A DNA stretch of 64,000 nt, from contig NZ_CP104003.1 in NCBI RefSeq assembly GCF_025231485.1, positions 248,001 through 312,000 on the forward strand, written 5' to 3'. The notes under the pieces were generated by a model, which made no database searches, was not told the origin of the DNA, and saw only the letters and a program-made list of their open reading frames with translations. Shown here one piece after another: positions 3,847 to 15,771 of this stretch (its first letter is position 1; every line of letters starts with the position of its first letter). The DNA comes from Salinirubellus salinus. GTDB lineage: Archaea > Halobacteriota > Halobacteria > Halobacteriales > Haloarculaceae. Position numbers and translations under genes: made by a program.

Positions 3847-5196
3847 ATGGGTCTGTTCGACCGGCTCCGCGGCGGCGGGGAGCCCCGCGTCGCCTTCTTC
3901 GGCATCGACGGGGTCCCGTACAGTCTGATCGCGGACAATCCGGACATCTTTCCGAACCTGACCGCGCTGGCCGAGGACGGGGCCGGCGGGGCAATCGACA
4001 GCATCGTGCCGCCCGAGTCCTCGGCCTGCTGGCCGTCGCTCACGACCGGTGTGAACCCCGGCGGGACCGGCGTCTACGGCTTCCAGGACCGCGAGAACGG
4101 GAGTTACGACACCTACGTCCCGATGGGTCAGGACGTGCGCGCCACCCGCATCTGGGACCGCGTGGCCGAGAAGGGCCGCGACGCCACCGTCCTCAACGTC
4201 CCGGTGACGTTCCCGCCCCAGCGCAACGTCCAGCGGATGGTCAGCGGCTTCCTCTCTCCCTCCGTGGAGAAGGCCGCGTACCCGGACGAACTCCGCGAGT
4301 ACCTCCAGCACTCGGGCTACCGCATCGACGTGAACGCGAAACTCGGTCACGACGAGGACAAGACCGAGTTCGTGGAGGACGCCCACGAGACGCTCGACGC
4401 GCGCTACGAGGCGTTCTCCCACTACGTCGAACAGGACGACTGGGACCTCTTCTTCGGCGTGTTCATGACCACCGACCGGGTCAACCACTTCCTGTTCAAG
4501 GACTACGAGGAGGGTGGCCCGAACGAGGAGCTGTTCCTCGAGTTCTACGCCAAGGTCGACGAGTACCTCGGGAAGCTCCGCGAGCAGCTCCCCGAGGACG
4601 TGACGATGGTCGTCGCCAGCGACCACGGGTTCACCTCGCTCGACCACGAGGTCCACTGCAACGCGTGGCTCGAGGAGGAGGGGTGGCTCTCCTACGAGTC
4701 CGACGAGCACACCTCGCTCGAGGACATCGCCGAGGAGTCGAAGGCCTACTCGCTCATCCCCGGCCGGTTCTACATCAACCTCGAGGGGCGCGAGCCACGC
4801 GGGAGCGTCCCGCAGGAGGAGTACGAGTCGGTCCGCGCCGAGCTGAAGGCCGACCTCGAGGCGCTCGAGGGGCCGGACGGCCGGAAGGTGGCCGAGCGCG
4901 TCGCCACGAAGGAGGAGGTGTTCCGCGGCGAACACGACGACATCGCGCCGGACCTCGTCGTCGTTCCGAACCACGGCTTCGACCTCAAGGCCGGCTTCAA
5001 GGGGACCCACGACGTGTTCGGTGTCGGCCCACGCAACGGGATGCACTCGTTCGACAACGCCTGCCTGTTCGTCGACGACGAGAACACCCGCATCGCGGAC
5101 GCCGACCTGCTCGACATCGCCCCGACCATCCTCGAACTGCTCGAGGTGGACGTCGACCGGACGGAGACGGACGGTCGGAGCCTCATCCAGCGCTGA
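3847..5196 (+). CDS. Alkaline phosphatase superfamily hydrolase (nucleotide pyrophosphatase/phosphodiesterase-like)
   Basis: A 449-aa predicted metal-dependent phosphodiesterase or phosphatase. The alkaline phosphatase fold ligands can be traced: FGIDG near residue 21 (metal Asp), a serine at about residue 58 in PPESSACWPSLTTG in the nucleophile position, TTDRVNHFLF (Asp and His), ASDHGF (Asp and His) and NGMHSF (His). No signal peptide or membrane segment is seen, so it is probably cytoplasmic, unlike many bacterial relatives. Substrate unknown; type I phosphodiesterase is the closest description. CTTCTTG at about 3818-3824 could be the promoter. The gene precedes the pilus-like cluster but is separated by 46 nt. 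Confidence 0.85.
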   Translation: MGLFDRLRGGGEPRVAFFGIDGVPYSLIADNPDIFPNLTALAEDGAGGAIDSIVPPESSACWPSLTTGVNPGGTGVYGFQDRENGSYDTYVPMGQDVRATRIWDRVAEKGRDATVLNVPVTFPPQRNVQRMVSGFLSPSVEKAAYPDELREYLQHSGYRIDVNAKLGHDEDKTEFVEDAHETLDARYEAFSHYVEQDDWDLFFGVFMTTDRVNHFLFKDYEEGGPNEELFLEFYAKVDEYLGKLREQLPEDVTMVVASDHGFTSLDHEVHCNAWLEEEGWLSYESDEHTSLEDIAEESKAYSLIPGRFYINLEGREPRGSVPQEEYESVRAELKADLEALEGPDGRKVAERVATKEEVFRGEHDDIAPDLVVVPNHGFDLKAGFKGTHDVFGVGPRNGMHSFDNACLFVDDENTRIADADLLDIAPTILELLEVDVDRTETDGRSLIQR

Positions 5197-5242
5197 CCGC
5201 ACGCCCGTAGCTTCTTGTCCGGTGGGGCGAGCAAGCCCCCGC

Positions 5243-5686
5243 GTGAGCGACCCGAGCCCCGACACCAGTGACGCCGACCACGTCGGACCCAGCGCCGCCC
5301 CCACCGACCTCGCCCTGCTCGCGACTCGTCTCGCCGCCGTCGAGCGTGCGCTGGGCGCCCGTGCCTGTGACTGCGCTCACGAGGCGTTCGAGCCGTCGGA
5401 ACACCCCCCGCCCGCCCGGTCCAGAGGCGAGCCCCCCGGCCACCGAGACGAGCCTCACGAGGACCTCCGTGCGGCCGTGCGTGCGCTCTGCGAGTACGTC
5501 CTCGCCCTCGAGCACGCGGACGGCACGGGAGCGGAACGGACCGCGGCGGTGCGGGTAGCGCTCGACGACCTCGGCCCGGTGCGGGCCGACGACACGTCCG
5601 ACCGGGACGAGACGGCCGACGAGCGGGTGGAGACCCTCGGCGTGCGGGCGTGGCTCGAACGGGTGGCGGCGGCGACCTTCGAGTGA
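5243..5686 (+). CDS. Haloarchaeal coiled-coil-type protein at the head of the pilus-like cluster (DUF7310-like)
   Basis: A 147-aa soluble protein starting with GTG. Most of it is helical: DLALLATRLAAVERALGAR followed by a CDC pair and a second helix DLRAAVRALCEYVLALEHAD. No membrane segment is present. It begins the run of overlapping genes encoding the secretion ATPase and its partners, and its stop overlaps the next start (GTGA). In haloarchaea an equivalent protein sits in front of the same genes; the DUF number is recalled from that synteny and not checked. Its role is unknown, perhaps an accessory factor of the ATPase or pilus assembly. Confidence 0.65.
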   Translation: MSDPSPDTSDADHVGPSAAPTDLALLATRLAAVERALGARACDCAHEAFEPSEHPPPARSRGEPPGHRDEPHEDLRAAVRALCEYVLALEHADGTGAERTAAVRVALDDLGPVRADDTSDRDETADERVETLGVRAWLERVAAATFE

Positions 5687-6156
5687 TCCGCGTGGTGCTG
5701 GGGGTCGTGCTCGCGGCCGCGCTCGTCGGCGTCTCCCTCCCGGCGCTCGAGGTCGCCGACCGGACGGGTGCGGCGACACGGACCGAGGCCACGGCGACCG
5801 ACCTCGCGGCCACCGTAGAGCGGTTCGCCGCCACCAACGACCCGGTCCGTGCCGGCGAGCCTGGCGCACGACGGGTCGTGACCATCCACCTGCCGGCGGG
5901 CGCGAGCCTCCGCATCGGCACTCGGCTTCGCTGGCGGGCGGGCGGCCAGCGTGGGGACGCCCGCCTGGCTCCAGCGATCGAAACACCCGGAGACGGAGTG
6001 CTGACCCTCGCCGGCGGCACCCACCGACTCCGGCTGGGATACGTCCGCCGACCGGCCGGCCCGGTGGTGACCGTCCGGAGGTTCAAGCCGGAAGCCGGGA
6101 CCACTCCGACGCGTGTTCCGGAACGATGGCGACGCGGGCGGCGCGTGCGGGTGTGA
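5683..6156 (+). CDS. Membrane-anchored protein of the pilus-like cluster (DUF7311-like)
   Basis: A 157-aa protein with one N-terminal hydrophobic helix, IRVVLGVVLAAALVGVSLPA, directly after the start, followed by an extracytoplasmic-type domain rich in beta-strand patterns. The GTG start at 5683 overlaps the previous stop. The short positive start and immediate helix resemble pseudopilin or TadE/TadG-like minor subunits. The 3' end overlaps the ATPase gene by 44 nt, which suggests co-translation. Function is inferred only from position. Confidence 0.65.
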   Translation: MIRVVLGVVLAAALVGVSLPALEVADRTGAATRTEATATDLAATVERFAATNDPVRAGEPGARRVVTIHLPAGASLRIGTRLRWRAGGQRGDARLAPAIETPGDGVLTLAGGTHRLRLGYVRRPAGPVVTVRRFKPEAGTTPTRVPERWRRGRRVRV

Positions 6157-7963
6157 GCCGACGTTCGAGGCGGACCGACTGCACCTCGACGCGCGGGAGT
6201 GCCCCGGTTCGGGACGGCTCGCCGAGCGGCCGGGCTGTCGTGAGACGGTCGTCGGGGCCCTCGAGCGACGGGACGCGGCGGCCGTCGTGGTCCGGACGGC
6301 GGGCGTCGAGCGGCGGTACGCCGGCGACGGCGCGGCGCTGCTCCTCGCGGCCGGCCGGTTCGCGGCCCGCGTCGGGCACCTGGACGGGGCGCTGGTCCAG
6401 CGGGCACGCCGCGACCCACTCGGCGCCGCGACCCGGGCGGCCGGCCGCGGTCGAACCTCGCCCGTCGCACGCATCGCGGCCGAGACCGGCCTGAGCGCGT
6501 GTGACACCACGGACTACCGATCACTGTTCGCCCCCGTCCGTCGCCCGGCCGTCGCCGACGCGCGACTCCGGCGTGGCCCGCCGCCGGACGCCCGGTTCCT
6601 CGACCGGTCCGATCTTCAGACGGGGGCCGTCGTGCGCCGGTACGCGCGCCCGGACGGGACGCGGACCTACCACCTCGACCCGCCGGCGTGGCGACTCGAC
6701 GACGACACGCTGGCGACGCTCGCCGACGCCCACGAGCGACTGGCTCGTGTGGCGCCGCCGACCAGCGGGAGGCGTCTCCGAACGGCGAGCGTGGAGTCCC
6801 GATCCGCGAGCGGCGAGCGCGGGGGTGACCGGGCGGCGCGCCGAGCCGTCGCCGCTGTCGCCGGACCGGAGGAACCGACCGAGCTGCTCGCGGCCGTCCT
6901 CGAGAAGCACACGGGCGGGCTCGGTGTCGTCGCCGACCTGCTGGCCGACAGCCGGGTCTCGGACGTGTTCGCTACGACCCCCGTCACCGAGAACCCGCTT
7001 CGGGTGCGCGTCGCCGACGAGACGCTCGAGACGAACGTCACGCTCACCGAGGCGGGGGCCGCGGCGCTCGCCTCGCGGTTCCGGCTGACCTCCGGCCGGT
7101 CGCTCTCGCGGGCGTCGCCGACGCTCGACGCCACCACCCGCGTCGCCGGTCGCCGGGTCCGGGTCGCCGCGGTCACGGGGCCGCTCAGCGACGGCACCGG
7201 GTTCGCGTTCCGCGCACACGACCCCGACCCGTGGCGGCTCGCAGACCTCGTGGCGAACGGGACGCTCCCACCCGAGACGGCCGCGCTCCTCGCCACCGCC
7301 GTCGCTCGCGGGGCGGCCGTGCTCGTCGCGGGTCCGCGTGGGGCGGGCAAGACGACGCTCCTCGGCGCGCTCTGCTGGGCGGTCCCCGAACGCACGCGCA
7401 CCCTCGTCGTCGAGGACACGCCCGAACTCCCGGTCGGGCCGCTCCAGCGGGCGGGCCGTGACGTCCAGGCGCTCCGGGTCGCGAGCGACGACGGCCCGAG
7501 CGTCCCCGTCGCCGAGGCGCTCCGGACCGCGCTCCGCCTCGGTGACGGCGCCCTCGCACTCGGCGAGGTCCGCGACGCCGAGGCCGCCAGCGTCCTGTTC
7601 GACGCGATGCGCGTCGGTGCGGGAGACGGTGCCGTCCTCGGGACCGTCCACGGCGAGGGGGCCGGCGCGGTCCGCGAGCGAGTGGCCTCCGAGTTCGGCG
7701 TCGCCCCGACGGCGTTCCGGGCCACCGACTGCGTCGTCACGCTCGGCCGCAGCGGGGACGAACGTCGGCTCCGTGCCGTCGAGGAGGTGGTGCCCGGTGA
7801 CGACGGGCCGGCGTTCGAGGCCCTCTACGACGGTGTTCCGACCGGGCGCGTCGACCGCGGGCAGAGCCGACTGCTGGCGACGCTCACCGGTCAGGACGAG
7901 ACGTACGCCGACGTCCGTGCGGCCGTCGACCGTCGCCGCCGCGCGTTCGAGGGCGAGCCGTGA
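6113..7963 (+). CDS. Type II/IV secretion system ATPase (PilB/TadA/GspE superfamily)
   Basis: A 616-aa ATPase expected to power assembly of a pilus-like fibre. The C-terminal half holds the motor: Walker A GPRGAGKTT near residue 408, an Asp box around VVEDTPELP, a Walker B region ALALGEVRDAEA and a His-box-like TVHGEGAGAVRERV. The N-terminal 50 residues carry CGC, ECPG and GCRET cysteines, so a metal-binding module is possible. The ATPase core is divergent from bacterial PilB but has the right motif order. The start is GTG at 6113, inside the preceding gene; a later start would remove the cysteine region. Its stop overlaps the start of the GspF-like partner, the standard pairing. Confidence 0.88.
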   Translation: MFRNDGDAGGACGCEPTFEADRLHLDARECPGSGRLAERPGCRETVVGALERRDAAAVVVRTAGVERRYAGDGAALLLAAGRFAARVGHLDGALVQRARRDPLGAATRAAGRGRTSPVARIAAETGLSACDTTDYRSLFAPVRRPAVADARLRRGPPPDARFLDRSDLQTGAVVRRYARPDGTRTYHLDPPAWRLDDDTLATLADAHERLARVAPPTSGRRLRTASVESRSASGERGGDRAARRAVAAVAGPEEPTELLAAVLEKHTGGLGVVADLLADSRVSDVFATTPVTENPLRVRVADETLETNVTLTEAGAAALASRFRLTSGRSLSRASPTLDATTRVAGRRVRVAAVTGPLSDGTGFAFRAHDPDPWRLADLVANGTLPPETAALLATAVARGAAVLVAGPRGAGKTTLLGALCWAVPERTRTLVVEDTPELPVGPLQRAGRDVQALRVASDDGPSVPVAEALRTALRLGDGALALGEVRDAEAASVLFDAMRVGAGDGAVLGTVHGEGAGAVRERVASEFGVAPTAFRATDCVVTLGRSGDERRLRAVEEVVPGDDGPAFEALYDGVPTGRVDRGQSRLLATLTGQDETYADVRAAVDRRRRAFEGEP

Positions 7964-9615
7964 CTGCCGTCCCCGGCTCCGGCCCGAGGGACGAGCGCGT
8001 CCGCCGGGCGAGCCGTGCTGCGGCACTCGTCACCCCTCCGCTCGGTGGGGTGGTGCTCCTGCTCGTCCCGGTCTCGGCCCGTATCCACGTCGTGGTCGCC
8101 ACGGCGGCGCTCGTCGGCACTGCGCTGGCCGCGAGACGGTGGCTCCCCGACCTCCTCGCGACGGCACGGCTGACCCGCGCCCTCGGGGCCGTCCCGGGGC
8201 TGGTCGGGCGCCTCGTGCTCCGGCTGCGGCTCGACCCGACGGTCGAGTCGGCAGTCGCGTTCGCCGCCGACGGTGACGGCCCTCTCGCCCGGAGTCTCGC
8301 ACGTGAGGCCCACCGCGCCCGTGGCACGGGCCGCGCTGGCCTGGACGCATTCGCCGACCGCTGGGCCGACCGGTTCCCGTCGCTGCGCCGTGCCTGTTCG
8401 CTCGTCGCCGCGGCGGCGAGTGCCGGGCCGGCGAGTCGCGAACGGTCGCTCGACCGGGCCGTAGCGGCCGTCCGCGAGGGGACCCGCGAGCGCGCCACCT
8501 CCTTCGCCGCCGACCTGCGTGGCCCGGCGACGGCGCTCTACGCGTTCGGCGTCCTCCTCCCGCTGGCGCTCGTCGGCGTCCTCCCCGCCGCTGGGGTGGC
8601 GGGACTCGGCGTCTCGCTGGCCACCATCGTCCTCGTCTACGACGTGCTCCTGCCGCTCGGGCTGCTGGGCGCCGCCGCGTGGCTCCTCGCCCGCCGCCCG
8701 GTCGCGTTCCCGCCACCACGGGTCGACCGCGCTCACCCTGCCGTGCCGGACGACTCCCGCCGAGCGATGCCGGTGGGGGTCGCCGTCGGCGCGCTCGGTG
8801 CCGCGCTGGGGTCGCTCGTCGCACCGTGGCTCGCCCCGGTCACGGCGCTCGGCGGTGGCGTCGGCGCCACGCTCGTCGTCGCCGCCCGGCCCGTGGTCAG
8901 CGTCCACGAGCGCGTCCGGGCCGTCGAACGGGGCCTCCCGGATGCGCTCGCCATCGTGGGGCGCCGGGTCGCCGAGGGGGTCGCCGTCGAGCGGGCGGTG
9001 GCCGACGCGAGCGAGCGCCTCGACGGTGCCACCGGTGAAGCGTTCGCGCTCGCGGCGCGTCGACAGCGACGACTCGCCGTGGGTATCGAGCGCGCGTTCG
9101 AGGGCGAGCACGGGCCACTCGCCGACCTGCCGAGCGAGCGCCTCGCCGACGCCGTCTCCCTCCTCGCGGTCGCCGGCCGGCAGGGAGCCCCCGCCGGGAG
9201 CGCGCTCGTCGCCACGGCGGACCACGTGGAGGACCTCCGCGAGGTCGAACGGGAGGCGCGTCGGTCGGTGCGGCGAGTGACACGGACGCTCTCGGACACC
9301 GCGGCCGTCTTCGGCCCACTGGTCGGCGGCGTCACCGTCGGCCTCGCGGGGCGCCTCTCGACGGGGGTGCGGGCGACCAGTTCCGCGGTCGGCCCCGCGG
9401 GCACGCTGGCGACGGCCGACCCGCTGCCCGTGGCCGGGCTCGGACTCGCCGTCGGTGCCTACGTCTGCTGGCTGGCCGTGGTACTGCCGACGCTCGCGAC
9501 GGGACTCGCACGCGGCGTCGACCCCGCGCTCGTCGCCACGCGAGTCGGGCAGTCGTTGCTCGCGGCGGTCGCGCTCTACACCGCCGCGTTCGCCGCGACG
9601 ACGATGCTCACCTGA
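7960..9615 (+). CDS. Type II secretion system F family membrane protein (PilC/TadC-like)
   Basis: A 551-aa polytopic inner membrane platform protein. Hydrophobic blocks lie near residues 25-60, 185-250, 270-310 and 480-550, with two soluble helical segments between them that correspond to the duplicated GspF/TadC domain. The motif REVEREARRSVRRVTRTLSD before the last block is typical of TadC-type proteins. GTG start overlaps the ATPase stop (GTGA). It should anchor the ATPase and the growing pilus. The protein is longer than single-domain TadC, which is usual for the archaeal form with two F domains. Confidence 0.87.
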   Translation: MTAVPGSGPRDERVRRASRAAALVTPPLGGVVLLLVPVSARIHVVVATAALVGTALAARRWLPDLLATARLTRALGAVPGLVGRLVLRLRLDPTVESAVAFAADGDGPLARSLAREAHRARGTGRAGLDAFADRWADRFPSLRRACSLVAAAASAGPASRERSLDRAVAAVREGTRERATSFAADLRGPATALYAFGVLLPLALVGVLPAAGVAGLGVSLATIVLVYDVLLPLGLLGAAAWLLARRPVAFPPPRVDRAHPAVPDDSRRAMPVGVAVGALGAALGSLVAPWLAPVTALGGGVGATLVVAARPVVSVHERVRAVERGLPDALAIVGRRVAEGVAVERAVADASERLDGATGEAFALAARRQRRLAVGIERAFEGEHGPLADLPSERLADAVSLLAVAGRQGAPAGSALVATADHVEDLREVEREARRSVRRVTRTLSDTAAVFGPLVGGVTVGLAGRLSTGVRATSSAVGPAGTLATADPLPVAGLGLAVGAYVCWLAVVLPTLATGLARGVDPALVATRVGQSLLAAVALYTAAFAATTMLT

Positions 9616-9644
9616 GCGGCACGCGGACCCGAGGTTCAAGTCCG

Positions 9645-10127
9645 ATGCCGGGACCACCCCGCCCCGTGCTCTCCCCACCAGTCGAGGCCTGGGCCCTCTG
9701 GGTCGGTCTCACGCTCGTCAGTGTGGCGATGGTCGGTGTCGCCGCCGAACCCCCCAGAGCGGCGCCGGCGGACGCGGCCGCACTCGCCCGGACCGTCGAC
9801 GGCGTCGCCGCCAGCGACCACGCCGCCGTCGCCGAACACCCACTCCGAGCGGCCGAGATACGCGTCCGTCGCGGCCGTCTCGCACTCCGCCGTGGCGACC
9901 GGACCGCGCGTGCGACGCTCCGCTACGGTCCGGTGGTCCCCGCGTTCGACGGGCCTCTCGCCCGGGTCCGCCGCGGGACGCCACCGGACCGCGTGTTCGA
10001 CTCCGCCGCGGCGTTCCGGGCAGCCGTGTCGGCCGCCCGCGAGCGCTCGGCGTGGCGACCTGCTCCGGAGCGATTGACGGCCCGCGCCGTCTCGTGGGGA
10101 GGTGTCGATGTCACGCTCGTCGGCTAG
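9645..10127 (+). CDS. Single-helix protein of the pilus-like cluster (DUF7283-like)
   Basis: A 160-aa protein with one transmembrane helix near the N terminus (about residues 13-35, EAWALWVGLTLVSVAMVGVA) and an exported-type domain with many Arg. No known domain was recognised. It follows the F-family protein after 29 nt and its 3' end overlaps the next gene by 20 nt. Its shape, a short cytoplasmic start, one helix and a globular outside, fits a minor pilin-like subunit. The start ATG lies within a 30-bp sequence that nearly repeats 6078-6107. Confidence 0.62.
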   Translation: MPGPPRPVLSPPVEAWALWVGLTLVSVAMVGVAAEPPRAAPADAAALARTVDGVAASDHAAVAEHPLRAAEIRVRRGRLALRRGDRTARATLRYGPVVPAFDGPLARVRRGTPPDRVFDSAAAFRAAVSAARERSAWRPAPERLTARAVSWGGVDVTLVG

Positions 10128-10518
10128 GGGACAGGTCGCCCCGGAGGTGGCGCTGGCCGCCGTCTTCGTGGTGACGGCGGGCCTCGCCCTCTACGCCGGG
10201 GTGGCCGCCGACGTCCTCGACGCCCTCGGTGCCGGTCGGGAGCGGGAGGCAGGGCAACGCCTCGCTGCGCAGACGGCCGACCGGGTCGCCGACACCGCGC
10301 GCGTCGACGGTGCGGTCCGGCCTGCACGACTCGCCGCGGGCGTCGCGGACGGACCGGCGGGCTACCGAGTGAACGCGACGCTCCTGACACGGGCGGGGCG
10401 GTGGACGGCCGGCCCAGCTCCCCCGGCACGTGCGCACCTCGCCGAGCGACGCGTCGCGACCTACCTCGGTCCCGGTCGGGTCCGACCGGCGGTCCTCCGG
10501 GTCCGGATGTGGCGATGA
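10108..10518 (+). CDS. Pilin-like or TadE-like protein of the pilus-like cluster
   Basis: A 136-aa protein. The start RGQVAPEVALAAVFVVTAGL is like the N terminus of TadE-type pseudopilins and archaeal pilins: Arg-Gly, then a short polar stretch with Glu, then a long hydrophobic helix. ATG at 10108 is preferred over GTG at 10102 because GGAGGTG at about 10097-10103 makes a well-spaced ribosome binding site. The remaining 100 residues are a small soluble domain. Its stop overlaps the next ATG (ATGA). I infer that it is a structural subunit; it belongs to the DUF7283-7286 group that co-occurs in haloarchaea. Confidence 0.65.
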   Translation: MSRSSARGQVAPEVALAAVFVVTAGLALYAGVAADVLDALGAGREREAGQRLAAQTADRVADTARVDGAVRPARLAAGVADGPAGYRVNATLLTRAGRWTAGPAPPARAHLAERRVATYLGPGRVRPAVLRVRMWR

Positions 10519-11432
10519 GTCGAGGGGCACGGGCCACCCCGCCTCGGACTCGGGCGATCGCCTCCCTCGTCGACGCCACGCTGTTCCTGTTGCTCGTCAC
10601 CGTCGCCGTCGGGGCGCTGACCCTCGCGCCGGTCGCCCCCGTGACGACGGCACCCGCGCCCGACGCGGGCGCGTCGCTCCAGCGGCTCCAGACGGTGACC
10701 GCGAACCCCGAGTACTCGCTGGCGAGCGGCGCGCGCCACGCAGACGAGTCGCTCGTCGCGTTCCCCCGCGAGTCGGGGCCGACGTTCGACCGGTACGCAC
10801 ACGGGTCCGTCGCGTCGCTGCTCGCGGACGCCGCCGTCGGTAACCTCATCGTCGACGGACGGGCGGTGACCCACACCGGCGACGGGTTCGAGCGAAGGGT
10901 GGTTCTGGCCGCCCGGAACGCGACCGGCCCCCGTGTCCACGTCCGGGCCGTCTGGACGCCGTACGCCGGTGCCCCGGTTCGGGGCTGCGTCGCCGCCGGC
11001 CCGACCCCGCCACCGGGTGCGCGTGTCTCGACGGCCGCTGCGACGCTCGACTCGGGATTCCCCCCTGTTCGCGACCGGGCACTCCGGGCGGCCCAGCGGG
11101 ACGGCTACGCCGGCGTCGCGCGGGTGGTCGCCAGAGCGACCGTCCGCGGCCTGTTCCCACCGACGTCGACCGCCCGGGCGCTACGGGGTGACTACCCGGT
11201 GGACGCGCTCGTGACCTACCGGTACCGACGGGTCGCGGCCCTGCTGGGTACGTCGGTCCGCGGTCCGGTCGAACGGGTGGAACCGCGCGCGGCCAACACG
11301 CGACTCTCGCGGGCGCTCGCCGCCGCCCTCGAACGCGACCTGCGACGGTCGTTCGACTCACCGGTGGCGGCCGCCCGTGCCGTCGAGGGTGGCGAGGTCA
11401 GGGTCGTCGTCCGGCGGTGGGCACGTGCCTGA
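10515..11432 (+). CDS. Single-helix protein of the pilus-like cluster (DUF7284/7285-like)
   Basis: A 305-aa protein beginning with a short positive segment (SRGARATPPRTRAIA) and one helix, SLVDATLFLLLVTVAVGALTL, at about residues 17-38. The rest is predicted to be outside the membrane, with a Pro-rich linker and a domain containing QRLQTVTANPEYSLA. The ATG overlaps the previous stop. The pattern again suggests a pilin-like or assembly subunit. No catalytic motif was seen. Confidence 0.62.
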   Translation: MSRGARATPPRTRAIASLVDATLFLLLVTVAVGALTLAPVAPVTTAPAPDAGASLQRLQTVTANPEYSLASGARHADESLVAFPRESGPTFDRYAHGSVASLLADAAVGNLIVDGRAVTHTGDGFERRVVLAARNATGPRVHVRAVWTPYAGAPVRGCVAAGPTPPPGARVSTAAATLDSGFPPVRDRALRAAQRDGYAGVARVVARATVRGLFPPTSTARALRGDYPVDALVTYRYRRVAALLGTSVRGPVERVEPRAANTRLSRALAAALERDLRRSFDSPVAAARAVEGGEVRVVVRRWARA

Positions 11433-14400
11433 CGGGACCGACCGTGGCCGGGTCCCGTTCGCGGTGGTCGCCGTCCTGCTGCTGGTCAGTGCGTCGACAC
11501 TCGCGGCGACGAGTCGAACCGGGCCGACGGCGACCACCGAGCCAGCCGCGGAACGTGCCATCGAGCGTGCCGAGGCCGCGGTGGTGACCGCGCTCCGGCG
11601 AGCCACCCGCGAGGCGGCGCGGCAGTCGGCCGCGAGGCCGCTCACCACGCCGGCCGACACGCCGACCGGCCGAGCGCTGAACGGGAGCGACCCGTTCCGT
11701 GCCGCACTCGAACTCCGGGTAGCGCTCGCGCTCGAGGACCGACTACGACACCTCGACACCCGGGTCGGCGACGTTCGCGTGGTCGCCCGCCAGTCACCCC
11801 GCCCATCGGAACCGGGGCCGGGAGCGAGCGTCCGGGCGGCGCTCGAACGGGTCGAGACCACCGCGGTGGGACCCGACGGGACGGCGCTCCGGGCGACCGT
11901 CCGGAACGTCACGCTCGTGGTCACGCGCGACGGGCGACCGCTTGACCGGGTCCAGCTGTCGCCGTCGGTCGTCGTCGAATGGCCACTGTTCGCGCTCCAC
12001 GAGCGCGTCGAGCGGTTCGAGCGTCGACTGGCCCGCTCGCCCCTCCGACCGGGGTTCGCGAGACGCCTCACCGCTCGTCTCGCCGCCGCGACGTGGGCCC
12101 GCGGGACGGCGCAGTACGGCGGCGCGCCCGTCGTGAACGTGCTCGGCACGCGTCACGTCGAACTGCTGGCGAACGGGGCGCTCCTCGACACCCAGCGCGC
12201 GACGCTCGGTGGCCTCGACGCCCGCGCCCCGAGGGAACTCCGCGAGGCCACCCGACGGGTGGCCGCCGCGGACGTGGCCGGTGGCGTCCGCGAGGCGCTG
12301 GCCCGCTCGAACGGGACGGTCACGGGCGGCTCGCCGACCACCGACCGGCTGCCCGACACTCGTCGTCGCACCGTCTCGGCCGCTCCGGCGGCCGACAGCG
12401 CGCTCGCGAACCTCAGCGGCGGCCGACTCGACGCGGTGCTCGCGCGGGCCTACACGGCCACGGTCCGGACCCGCGCGACCGTCCAGCGGGACGGACGGAC
12501 CGGTGGCTCGGGTGGGCCACCGGGGCCGGGGTGGTCTCTCGTGGACCGACGGGTCGACACCGAGTGGTCGGCACGACCCCTCGGGGATGGCGTCACACCC
12601 CCCGACCCGGCGACGGGGTGGCACGGCCTCGGGACGGCCACGCGCCGTGTCGTCCGCACCCGGACGGTGACCGAACGCTGGGCACACGACGGCGAGACAC
12701 GACGGACCCGCCACACGGACCGGGCCACCTACGCTGTCGCCCTGGTCCACGAGGGGCGACCGAGTCGCCGGACGGCGGCTCCAGTCCGACCCGTCCGGTC
12801 GGCGTTCGTCCGTCGCCCGGACCCGACCGGCGGTTCGAACCTCGCCGACGCCGGGCGTACCGCGACGCGTCGGTTCGAGGCCCGCACCGACCGACTGGCC
12901 GTGCGGGCGGTCCGCGAGGGACTGGACGGAACCGAGTCCGTCGCCGGCGAGGTCCCCGCGGCGCTCCGGGACCGGGCGCTCGCCGATCTCGTCTCGCTGC
13001 ACCGTCGCGTGCGGAACGTCTCGGTGTCGGTGGAGCGTGGTGACCTCGCCACGCTCACGGTCTCGCCGGCTGCCCGGCTGGCCGACCGTCTCCGGGAGCG
13101 GCGCGCGGACCTCGTGGCTGCGCCAGCGCGGTACGACCACGTCGCCGACCGGGCGCGGGTGGCGGTACGAGCCGCGTACCTCGACGCCGTCCTCGCCAGC
13201 CTCGACACCCAGACCGCCCGCCACGGTGTCGCCGAGCGCCGCCTCGACGCGCGACTCCGGGCAGCGGGCCTCGGCGACCTCCACTGGCTCCGCGAGGTGA
13301 CGAGCGTCGGCGTGGCGGCGCCCAGCGTGGGGCGCGAGTCGGCGGGGCGGGCGGGGCCGTTCGCCCCTCGCGTCTCCACCACCCCGGTCTACCTCGGCGC
13401 GACGGCGTCCTCGTCCGTGCCCGGAGGGGCACCGCTCGTCACGCGGAACGTGAACCTCGCGGTGCCGTACGCCGACGCCGGCGACGGGGCCGCTGCCGCG
13501 GTGACAGCGGCGCTGTTCGACGACCGGACGGTGGGACTCGGGACGGCCGCCCGGACGCTCCGGTCGTCGCGCCGGGTCGCCGCCCGGACGGGTGATTCGA
13601 GCCTCCGAGAGGAGACCGGACGCCTCCGCAGAGCGGTGAACCGCTCGGTCGGTCGCGTCTCGTGGCGCCTGCGGCGGACCCTCCGGCGGCGTGGGGTGGG
13701 TCGCGAGATGCGGCGGGCGGCGGTGCGGTCGGCGTTCGCGCGGTGGGACGACCCGTCCGGGCGCGCGCTCGCGCTCTCGCACGGGTCGGTCGTGCCTCGG
13801 GTGGTCGACGCCGTCGCGCGCCGGGTCCCTCGTTATCGGGCCGAGGCCCGCCGCCTCGCACTCCGGACCGCGCTGCGTGCGACGCGCAGACGGGCGCTCC
13901 GGTCGGCCTCCGTCCGGGTGGCGGCGCGACCGGTCGACCGCACCGGTCGTCGGCTCCGCTGGGTCGCCCGGACGGCCACGCGCGAGGTGACGACGCGAGC
14001 GGTCGAGACTGGAGTCGGCCGCCTCCGCGAGCGGCTCCCCGGGCCGTTGAGCGCCGTCCCGGCGGGCGTCCCCGTGACCCCGGTGCCCGGGTACTGGTAC
14101 GCGACGGCGAACGTCTGGCACGTCACGGTCCGGGGCCGGTACGAGCGTGTGACGCTCCGAGCACCGACGGGCCGCCCGCCTACCGGGACGCTCACCTACG
14201 TCCGCGAGGCCGGTGTCGTCCGACTGGACGTGGACCGCGACGGCAGCCCGGAGCGGCTCGGGCGGAGCGACGCCGTGGCCTTCGACGTCTCGACGGCCGT
14301 CGCCGTCGCGGTGCCCCCCGGGCCACGCGGGGTCGGGGACAAGGACGGGAACGCCGACGAACGCTCGGCCGGGTGGCCACGACCCGGCGCGCCAGACGTC

Positions 14401-14445
14401 GCGGCGGCGACCGCGAACGAAACCACTTACCCGCCGCCCTCGTAG
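11425..14445 (+). CDS. Very large single-helix protein of the pilus-like cluster (DUF7286-like)
   Basis: About 1,006 aa from GTG at 11425, which overlaps the stop of the previous gene. The N terminus DRGRVPFAVVAVLLLVSAST is one pilin-like helix after Arg-Gly; the remaining 970 residues appear to be on the outer face. The protein is exceptionally rich in Arg, Thr and Val, and has long helical segments (for example 290-330 and 520-640). No known domain was recognised. It is far too large for a pilin, so it may be a tip adhesin, a scaffold, or a substrate. Third-position G+C is as high as in neighbouring genes, so it is not recently acquired. Confidence 0.7.
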   Translation: MPDGTDRGRVPFAVVAVLLLVSASTLAATSRTGPTATTEPAAERAIERAEAAVVTALRRATREAARQSAARPLTTPADTPTGRALNGSDPFRAALELRVALALEDRLRHLDTRVGDVRVVARQSPRPSEPGPGASVRAALERVETTAVGPDGTALRATVRNVTLVVTRDGRPLDRVQLSPSVVVEWPLFALHERVERFERRLARSPLRPGFARRLTARLAAATWARGTAQYGGAPVVNVLGTRHVELLANGALLDTQRATLGGLDARAPRELREATRRVAAADVAGGVREALARSNGTVTGGSPTTDRLPDTRRRTVSAAPAADSALANLSGGRLDAVLARAYTATVRTRATVQRDGRTGGSGGPPGPGWSLVDRRVDTEWSARPLGDGVTPPDPATGWHGLGTATRRVVRTRTVTERWAHDGETRRTRHTDRATYAVALVHEGRPSRRTAAPVRPVRSAFVRRPDPTGGSNLADAGRTATRRFEARTDRLAVRAVREGLDGTESVAGEVPAALRDRALADLVSLHRRVRNVSVSVERGDLATLTVSPAARLADRLRERRADLVAAPARYDHVADRARVAVRAAYLDAVLASLDTQTARHGVAERRLDARLRAAGLGDLHWLREVTSVGVAAPSVGRESAGRAGPFAPRVSTTPVYLGATASSSVPGGAPLVTRNVNLAVPYADAGDGAAAAVTAALFDDRTVGLGTAARTLRSSRRVAARTGDSSLREETGRLRRAVNRSVGRVSWRLRRTLRRRGVGREMRRAAVRSAFARWDDPSGRALALSHGSVVPRVVDAVARRVPRYRAEARRLALRTALRATRRRALRSASVRVAARPVDRTGRRLRWVARTATREVTTRAVETGVGRLRERLPGPLSAVPAGVPVTPVPGYWYATANVWHVTVRGRYERVTLRAPTGRPPTGTLTYVREAGVVRLDVDRDGSPERLGRSDAVAFDVSTAVAVAVPPGPRGVGDKDGNADERSAGWPRPGAPDVAAATANETTYPPPS

Positions 14446-14453
14446 CCACGCCC

Positions 14454-14879
14454 ATGTTCCACGAGGCGGTCGAGGACCCCGGTACCCACACGCCGGCGGA
14501 CCTGCACGCGGCCTACGAGGCGATGCTCGTCGAGTCGGTCGAGTCGGTCGGCGTCGAACGCGCGGCGGCCGAGTCGGGCGTCGACGAGGCGACGGTCGAG
14601 GCACTGGTCGACGGCGAGAGCCCAGAACTCACGCTCGAGGAGGGTGCGGCCCTGCTCGCGCTCGACGGCGCGGTGTCTGCCGACGACGTGGTCGCGCTCT
14701 CGCGCGACGCCCTGTTGATGGGGATGACCACCGCCGTGGTCGACGTGGACTCGCTCTCGGCGGGCATCGACGGCGAACTCTCCGGCCGCGAGATCCAGGC
14801 CAAGGTCGAGGGTCGGTTCCCCATCACGCTCCGGGAGTTCGCGCGCATCCACCAGTTCCTCGACGAGCGGTCCCGGTAG
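14454..14879 (+). CDS. DUF5791 family protein
   Basis: A 141-aa acidic soluble protein, function unknown. It is mainly alpha-helical: AYEAMLVESVESVGVERAA, then a helix-turn-helix-like segment AAESGVDEATVEALVDGESP and a C-terminal part with IQAKVEGRFPITLREFARIH. The middle resembles a small HTH module, so DNA binding is possible but not shown. It starts 8 nt after the pilus-like cluster and ends one base before the epimerase gene, so it could be on either transcript. Confidence 0.72.
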   Translation: MFHEAVEDPGTHTPADLHAAYEAMLVESVESVGVERAAAESGVDEATVEALVDGESPELTLEEGAALLALDGAVSADDVVALSRDALLMGMTTAVVDVDSLSAGIDGELSGREIQAKVEGRFPITLREFARIHQFLDERSR

Positions 14880-14880
14880 C

Positions 14881-15771
14881 ATGCGGGTCGTCGTACTCGG
14901 GTGTGGCTACGTCGGCCTCGAACTCGGGCGGCAGCTGGCGGCCGCCCACGACGTCGTCGGCGTCCGGCGGTCGGACGACGGTGCCGCGGCCGTCGAGGAC
15001 GCGGGCCTCGAGGCCGTGCAGGCCGACGTGACCGACCCTGATGGACTCGCACGCGTGCCCGACGCCGACTGGGTGGTGTTCGCCGCCTCCTCGGGGGGCC
15101 GGGGTGCGGACCGCGCCCGCGAGGTGTACGTCGAGGGCCAGCGGACGGCCATCGACGCGTTCGGCGAGCGCGACGCTCCCCCCGAGCGGTACGTCTACAC
15201 GTCCAGCACGGGCGTCTACGGTGACCACGGCGGCGACTGGGTGGGCGAGGACACCCCCATCGAGCCGACGACGGACAAGACGCGTGTCCTCGCCGAGGCC
15301 GAGCGGGTCGCCCGTGAGCGGACCGCCGAGTACGGCATCGGGGGGTCGGTCGCCCGGTTCGCCGGTCTCTACGGTCCCCGGCGCTACCGCCTCTCGCGCT
15401 ACCTCGAGGGGCCGGTCACGGCGGGCTACCTCAACATGGTCCACCGGGACGACGCCGCGGGCGCCGTCGCGTTCCTGCTCGAACACGGCGTCGACGAGGA
15501 CGTCCTCGTCGTCGACGACGAACCCGTCGAGAAGTGGGCGTTCGCCGACTGGTTGGCGGACGAGTGCGGGGTCGAGCGCCCGGCCAAGCGGACGAAGGAG
15601 GAGCGCCTCGCGGCGGGTGACCTGTCGGAGGCGGCCGAGCGCCGTGTACTGACGAGCAAGCGGTGCTCGAACGAGCGCCTGCGCGGACTGGGCTACGAGT
15701 TCCGGTACCCGACGTTCCGCGAGGGGTACCGGGCAGCCATCGAGGCGTTCCGTGAGGGCCACGAGCCCTGA
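14881..15771 (+). CDS. NAD(P)-dependent epimerase/dehydratase-like protein (extended SDR)
   Basis: A 296-aa Rossmann-fold protein. The dinucleotide motif GCGYVG is at residues 8-13, followed by acidic ends of beta strands; YTSSTGVYGD at about residue 101 supplies the SDR Ser and Tyr region, but the usual YxxxK is not evident there. It matches the atypical SDR group (YeeZ-like) more than true sugar epimerases. Substrate unknown. Located on the same strand directly after the DUF5791 gene and convergent with the ATP-grasp gene. Confidence 0.82.
   Translation: MRVVVLGCGYVGLELGRQLAAAHDVVGVRRSDDGAAAVEDAGLEAVQADVTDPDGLARVPDADWVVFAASSGGRGADRAREVYVEGQRTAIDAFGERDAPPERYVYTSSTGVYGDHGGDWVGEDTPIEPTTDKTRVLAEAERVARERTAEYGIGGSVARFAGLYGPRRYRLSRYLEGPVTAGYLNMVHRDDAAGAVAFLLEHGVDEDVLVVDDEPVEKWAFADWLADECGVERPAKRTKEERLAAGDLSEAAERRVLTSKRCSNERLRGLGYEFRYPTFREGYRAAIEAFREGHEP

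Follow-up and report, generated by a model that had tools for sequence, protein, structure and literature searches.

A conserved haloarchaeal operon that probably encodes a type IV filament-superfamily machine with a very large prepilin-like protein

Several described systems stand close to the operon analysed here. A type IV pilus regulon, pilB2/C2, has been reported beside cetZ2 in Halobacteria (PMC9856176), and related ATPases were sorted into subclades in the census of Makarova 2016 (PMC4858521). In Halobacterium salinarum the pil-2 locus (subclade 4C; PMC4292770) is reported to be induced in attached cells, and in Haloferax the PilB3-C3 pair acts on pilins encoded in trans (PMC4858521, PMC6491452). 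Here we analyse eight genes of Salinirubellus salinus that occupy positions 5243-14445 of a 64,000-nucleotide stretch of contig NZ_CP104003.1 (positions 248,001-312,000), referred to below as the window. The genes include an ATPase, a membrane platform protein and several proteins with a single N-terminal helix, among them one of about a thousand residues.

We propose, with a probability of about 0.68, that the operon encodes a machine of the type IV filament superfamily. A machine of this superfamily is well supported by the ATPase, the platform, two conserved prepilin-like subunits and a PibD-type peptidase in the genome. The PilB and PilC genes are intact and belong to one coherent clade, and the prepilin motif is kept in DUF7285 and DUF7286 across Halobacteria and Methanosarcinales. 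The original prediction, made from the DNA letters alone, had spoken of a pilus-like system with pilin-like proteins; this is partly supported, as it holds for the ATPase, the platform and the two prepilin-like subunits, applies in part to DUF7284, and fails for DUF7283, which is not pilin-like by motif.

The operon and its conservation

Families were assigned to the eight proteins of the operon, and to those of the neighbouring genes, with a Pfam scan. All eight genes lie on the + strand, in the order DUF7310-type, DUF7311, PilB, PilC, DUF7283, DUF7285, DUF7284 and DUF7286. The first gene (5243-5686) encodes a cytoplasmic coiled-coil protein of 147 residues, a divergent copy that falls below the Pfam threshold; it matches the family at the equivalent position in relatives with an E-value of 3e-5 (3.2e-5), and the relatives' proteins are themselves PF23991 DUF7310 (E-values of 1e-27 to 1e-32). 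DUF7311 (5683-6156; Pfam E-value 5.9e-25) has a single N-terminal helix and a small domain. For this gene the best-supported start codon is GTG 5683; it overlaps the stop codon of the coiled-coil gene and yields the family consensus N-terminus MIRVVLAVLL. The PilB/TadA-type ATPase (6113-7963, 616 residues; PF00437, T2SSE, 8.5e-23) carries an N-terminal four-cysteine module, and is followed by the PilC/TadC/GspF-type membrane platform (7960-9615, 551 residues; PF00482, T2SSF, 4.1e-7, above the cut-off). DUF7283 (9645-10127; PF23954, 3.6e-46) again has a single N-terminal helix, and has no prepilin motif. DUF7285 (10102-10518, with a likely start at ATG 10108; PF23956, 1.7e-27) is prepilin-like, as is DUF7284 (10515-11432; PF23955, 1.9e-88), a putative minor subunit. 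The last gene, DUF7286 (11425-14445; PF23957, 2e-290), encodes about 1,007 residues with a prepilin-like N-terminus and a large multi-domain extracellular part.

The genes are tightly packed, with overlaps of 4 nucleotides between DUF7310 and DUF7311, 44 between DUF7311 and PilB, 4 between PilB and PilC, 20-26 between DUF7283 and DUF7285, 4 between DUF7285 and DUF7284 and 8 between DUF7284 and DUF7286; the largest gap, 29 nucleotides, separates PilC from DUF7283. The original prediction had placed eight genes, seven of them overlapping or nearly so, at 5243-14445 and had expected their order to be conserved in haloarchaea. All eight are present there with their families correctly named, and the close packing extends to every one of the seven junctions, none of which leaves more than 29 nucleotides between genes. 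The expectation about gene order is borne out as follows.

Eighty named haloarchaeal loci were retrieved by alignment to DUF7286, of which 66 contain all seven alignable genes. The order DUF7311-PilB-PilC-DUF7283-DUF7285-DUF7284-DUF7286, on one strand, is found in 65 of these 66, which is far beyond chance; the sole exception is that of Halorussus ruber (L202), where PilB lies downstream of DUF7286. The same seven-gene order occurs in a further set of 24 haloarchaeal loci (one contig ends before DUF7311), and a DUF7310-type gene heads the operon in 68 of the 80 loci. DUF7286 was found in 224 of 292 Halobacteria. The operon is real and widely conserved in haloarchaea, with the machine present in about three quarters of the sampled genomes. 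Searching plasmids gave no DUF7286 and, on Haloterrigena plasmids, an ATPase-PilC pair only. On one such plasmid (L117, 8397-12664) there is a PilB-PilC pair of the operon's clade with no pilin genes annotated alongside.

The ATPase and DUF7286 occur together. A search with an alignment of this ATPase type separated its members (692-938 bits) from everything else (at most 187 bits). Among 97 genomes, all 70 carriers of the ATPase clade also carry DUF7286 and 23 have neither; an ATPase of the clade without DUF7286 was found in none of the 97. DUF7286 occurs without the ATPase in four genomes, two of which hold a low-scoring remnant only. Fisher's test gives p = 1.6e-18 for the co-occurrence, a value that is uncorrected for kinship and so overstates independence. 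DUF7286 is an obligatory marker of the system. Genomes G045 and G056 have DUF7286 and no ATPase of its clade. Three Halobacterium genomes (G012, G067 and G235) have a low-scoring DUF7286 match only, which in G012 covers the C-terminal 256 positions, with no operon left. Halobacterium thus appears to be losing the operon. Internal TGA codons were encountered in several ATPase matches, and in the one checked by coordinates (L052, which is G010) the match merely runs into the terminal stop.

The operon is also unusual in composition. In this genome its membrane-anchored and extracellular subunits are strongly basic, with isoelectric points (pI) of 11.3-11.9, against a median pI of 4.9 for the other genes of the window; across the DUF7286 family the pI ranges widely, with a median of 9. 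In 97% of 78 loci the operon contains more guanine and cytosine (GC) than its flanks do; within the window, the extra GC falls at codon positions 1 and 2.

The ATPase and the prepilin-like proteins

In 21 ATPase sequences the GxxGAGKT Walker A motif and the E-box and H-box residues are invariant, as are C14, C30 and C42 of the N-terminus; all four N-terminal cysteines are present in every haloarchaeal and Methanosarcinales sequence displayed. In a maximum-likelihood tree, which was rooted at the midpoint only, the window ATPase, its haloarchaeal relatives and eight Methanosarcinales copies form one group with 100/100 support, which is set off by a branch of length 2.76 and is distinct from the FlaI, PilB3-, PilB4- and pil-2-type ATPases. 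The archaellum was also considered: the window ATPase lies outside the FlaI clade, and the archaellum operon of this genome lies near 2,344,000. Both this and the only A24 prepilin peptidase of the genome (position 3,427,219, 51.4 bits) are outside the window at 248,001-312,000, and the original prediction was right that the window contains neither.

The same tree separates the operon from pil-2 of H. salinarum. Identity with that system was suspected because both are printed with the labels pilB2 and arCOG01818, and it was ruled out by profile scores together with the tree. The pil-2 ATPase, which was chosen by exclusion among the three ATPases of the genome that matches pNRC100 DNA (100% over 1,246 bases), scores 39.7 bits against the profile of the operon's system, compared with 400-940 for true members. 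In the tree it clusters with the ATPase of another system in the Salinirubellus genome, outside the operon's 100/100 clade. For this reason, the pil-2 induction reported for attached cells (PMC4292770) has no bearing on the operon, and expression data for pil-2 should not be taken as data on it, despite the shared label. The other Salinirubellus system (L079; G000:C1:3839000-3852000) is of pil-2 type with four small prepilin-like genes, and its ATPase and that of Halobacterium pil-2 share the longest inner branch of the tree.

A class III prepilin motif was scored in the relatives as [KR][GAS] immediately ahead of the hydrophobic core. It is present in DUF7285 in 77 of 80 relatives (96%), in DUF7286 in 76 of 80 (95%) and in DUF7284 in 40 of 80. 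Typical forms are RGQTEPLAALVAVFAV in DUF7285, DRARVPFALVGVLLLV in DUF7286 and RAVSTVVDATVFLLLV in DUF7284. The motif is seen also in Methanosarcinales copies, for example DERGVTEPYTD and DARVPFAVIG. By this measure DUF7285 and DUF7286 are predicted to be clearly pilin-like and DUF7284 partly so; DUF7283 does not appear pilin-like by motif, and DUF7311 would be a further anchored protein. DUF7285 is the best candidate for the structural pilin.

AlphaFold predicts DUF7285 with a mean predicted local distance difference test (pLDDT) score of 92.7, as a helix at 14-66, a short helix and a four-stranded sheet, a modelled lollipop shape that resembles pilins. The model of DUF7286 (mean pLDDT 82.2) begins with one N-terminal helix and continues into several alpha-beta domains. 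Searched with VIA-align, DUF7285 gave ribosomal protein S3 domains as its best rows, with Z up to 7.7, which is in the range of unrelated models and was rejected as a match; DUF7286 gave Z below 5 and no significant match. With a helix-plus-sheet model for DUF7285 and no significant structural match, a pilin fold of the subunits is plausible and unproven.

Relatives in Methanosarcinales and the cetZ2 neighbourhood

Relatives of DUF7286 are encoded in 11 genomes of Methanosarcinales type, a lineage deduced from a control match in Methanosarcina acetivorans together with sequence content and the sarcinarray proteins. Several of these loci contain a cassette of a DUF7311-like gene, a protein of about 200 residues without a family, DUF7285, DUF7284 and DUF7286. 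Profile comparison shows the first gene to be homologous to DUF7311 (E-value 2.7e-11); the second was tried as DUF7283, and the comparison gave nothing beyond its position. The corresponding ATPase and PilC, which belong to the operon's clade, sit together in a two-gene locus of their own. Each of the eight genomes examined for the ATPase has one such locus, and these PilC proteins are orthologues of the window PilC (about 1e-107). Close to one PilB-PilC locus lie overlapping genes for an A24 peptidase (4.8e-11) and a DUF7311-like protein (1e-5). In all 11 loci (L039-L049) the next gene past DUF7286 encodes a sarcinarray/MAST surface protein, two of them called by an NCBIfam scan (7e-48 and 2e-61) and the rest by a profile made from those two. 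This family is a possible functional partner of DUF7286. The haloarchaeal system is thus tied to Methanosarcinales and to the sarcinarray/MAST proteins.

In haloarchaea the neighbourhood is characteristic. Directly upstream of the operon lies a divergent cetZ gene in 41 of the 65 named loci, and 65 of the 66 CetZ genes in the loci score more than 400 bits to CetZ2. In a Haloferax relative, the CetZ2 orthologue beside the operon is about 87% identical over 348 residues to PDB 4b45, which we take to be CetZ2 (and 4b46 CetZ1). Genus g32 was recognised as Haloferax from CetZ2 identities of up to 98%; H. volcanii itself did not turn up among the genomes searched. The Salinirubellus genome has no CetZ2 orthologue, and cetZ2 is likewise absent from the place it normally takes between the phosphodiesterase and the operon (window 5197-5242). 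Both CetZ proteins of the genome are closer to CetZ1 (86% and 53% identity) than to CetZ2 (49% and 38%). We read the absence as a probable loss in this lineage, because the rest of the neighbourhood is kept. Since the operon is retained in a genome without CetZ2, the machine is not strictly dependent on CetZ2.

The flanking genes are all on the + strand. Upstream lies a type I phosphodiesterase (3847-5196; PF01663, 1.3e-52), which in relatives is separated from the operon by cetZ2. Downstream are the conserved neighbours DUF5791 (14454-14879; PF19104, 4.6e-44), which is probably outside the machine, and an NAD-dependent epimerase (14881-15771; PF01370, 8.2e-15), which lies downstream of DUF7286 in most haloarchaeal loci. 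DUF5791 is likely to be the arCOG04674 neighbour of the regulon in PMC9856176.

Interpretation and comparison with described systems

On the filament-superfamily reading, the single PibD-type peptidase would cleave DUF7285 and DUF7286, and also DUF7284 where the motif is kept. ATP hydrolysis by PilB could then drive extraction of the cleaved subunits by PilC. The helix of a pilus, or of a short pseudopilus, would be built from repeated DUF7285 subunits, and DUF7284 together with the large DUF7286 would make up an exposed complex of minor or tip proteins. Two others, DUF7283 and DUF7311, may remain in the membrane as assembly parts, and the DUF7310 coiled coil would dock onto PilB from the cytoplasmic side. 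The likely purpose of such a machine would be surface contact, that is, adhesion or contact between cells.

Several observations weigh against this proposal. No filament has been seen so far, and Foldseek found no significant match (below 0.001) for DUF7285 (best E-value 0.19) or DUF7286 (0.11). The prepilin motif occurs in DUF7283 in none of 80 relatives and in DUF7311 in 11 of 67 (16%), and is missing from DUF7284 in half of them. The original prediction had counted four proteins with a short positive segment and one hydrophobic helix; a single N-terminal helix is in fact present in five, DUF7311 among them, and the positive prepilin-type segment does not hold for DUF7283 (0/80). DUF7286 is much bigger than any ordinary pilin. 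Finally, there is no Pilin_N (PilA family) gene in the operon and there are 15 elsewhere in the genome, which leaves room for a true major pilin supplied in trans.

This last point leads to an alternative that we consider unlikely, in which PilB-PilC would assemble pilins of the PilA family from other loci, with the helix proteins of the operon forming a base and a tip only. The 15 stand-alone Pilin_N genes would fit it, as would the precedent of PilB3-C3 in Haloferax (PMC4858521, PMC6491452), the placing of the ATPase and the pilin set in separate loci in Methanosarcinales, and a small prepilin-like gene after PilC in two Methanosarcinales loci (L099 and L102). However, the ATPase clade tracks DUF7286 perfectly, and the operon has a dedicated major pilin available in DUF7285, a small and strongly conserved protein with the best prepilin motif. 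An arrangement similar to type II secretion, with a short motor-driven piston for exporting or displaying a surface protein and DUF7286 as the large tip pseudopilin, is improbable in our view. The fixed single-copy helix proteins of very unequal sizes do resemble a pseudopilin set, and the sarcinarray/MAST protein that follows DUF7286 in 11 of 11 Methanosarcinales loci is a possible client; but no client gene lies beside the haloarchaeal operon, the cells have no outer membrane or secretin, and to our knowledge a type II-secretion-like system is not established in archaea.

The neighbourhood raises the further idea that the helix proteins form no filament and belong to a membrane-bound complex linked to cell shape via CetZ2. 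In favour of such a link, cetZ2 is the divergent neighbour in 41 of 65 loci, and its deletion in Haloferax changes cell length in early biofilms (PMC10606840). However, Salinirubellus keeps the operon without a CetZ2 orthologue, the Methanosarcinales loci that were read yielded no cetZ gene, and the prepilin motifs are conserved; we regard this explanation as very improbable. Within the filament-superfamily reading, we suggest tentatively, and with less than even confidence, that the operon represents a distinct and old class shared by Halobacteria and Methanosarcinales. In such a class, an obligatory prepilin-like DUF7286 of about a thousand residues would sit at the tip or be pushed to the surface, with a sarcinarray/MAST partner in Methanosarcinales, and the cysteine module of the ATPase would bind metal or sense redox state.

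Searches of the open-access literature with the DUF7283-7286 names and with the Haloferax locus tags next to cetZ2 returned nothing, and no experiments on the machine were found. The literature searched gives no function for the operon, in agreement with the original prediction that the role of a fibre is not established. The same prediction called the system under-described. This is right insofar as the DUF names are absent from 5.39 million open papers, and goes too far in that the regulon has been reported beside cetZ2 (PMC9856176) and the operon was very likely included in the 2016 census (PMC4858521).

Comparison with known systems places the operon as follows. The likeness to the bacterial Tad pilus is limited to a TadA-type ATPase (TIGR03819, 111 bits, well under the cut-off of 373) and a TadC-like platform. 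Unlike in the Tad pilus, the Flp, TadE, TadG and RcpC families have no match in any of the eight proteins, and the search with hidden Markov models for TadE/TadG signals that the original prediction had suggested came out negative. The Haloferax PilB1-C1, PilB3-C3 and PilB4 pili belong to the same superfamily, with PilB, PilC and PibD-processed pilins, but to other ATPase clades and with other pilin families; the Salinirubellus genome has loci of PilB3, PilB4 and pil-2 type elsewhere (types that we assigned from gene content). With pil-2 (PMC4292770) the operon shares PilB-PilC with several prepilins and its haloarchaeal host, as well as the printed labels. Subclade 4F of the census (PMC4858521) is a closer match: its ATPase has a cysteine-rich N-terminus, it occurs in methanogens and halobacteria, and in halobacteria it has an intracellular coiled-coil partner (arCOG07564 there), a correspondence that we draw from the described trait. 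The operon is probably subclade 4F, as assigned by these traits. It is also the cetZ2-adjacent pilB2/C2 regulon of PMC9856176: the operon of relatives is divergent beside cetZ2, with the epimerase downstream and the phosphodiesterase beyond, whereas the Salinirubellus genome has no cetZ2, in the adjacent slot or anywhere else. In the text read, that paper names neither the DUF families nor the Methanosarcinales counterparts. What is new here is the Methanosarcinales relatives with their MAST partner, the cysteine module of the ATPase, the obligatory DUF7286, the separation from pil-2 and the loss of cetZ2 in this genome. The pilus reading appears to be the best one, for a system of a kind noticed earlier by comparative genomics.

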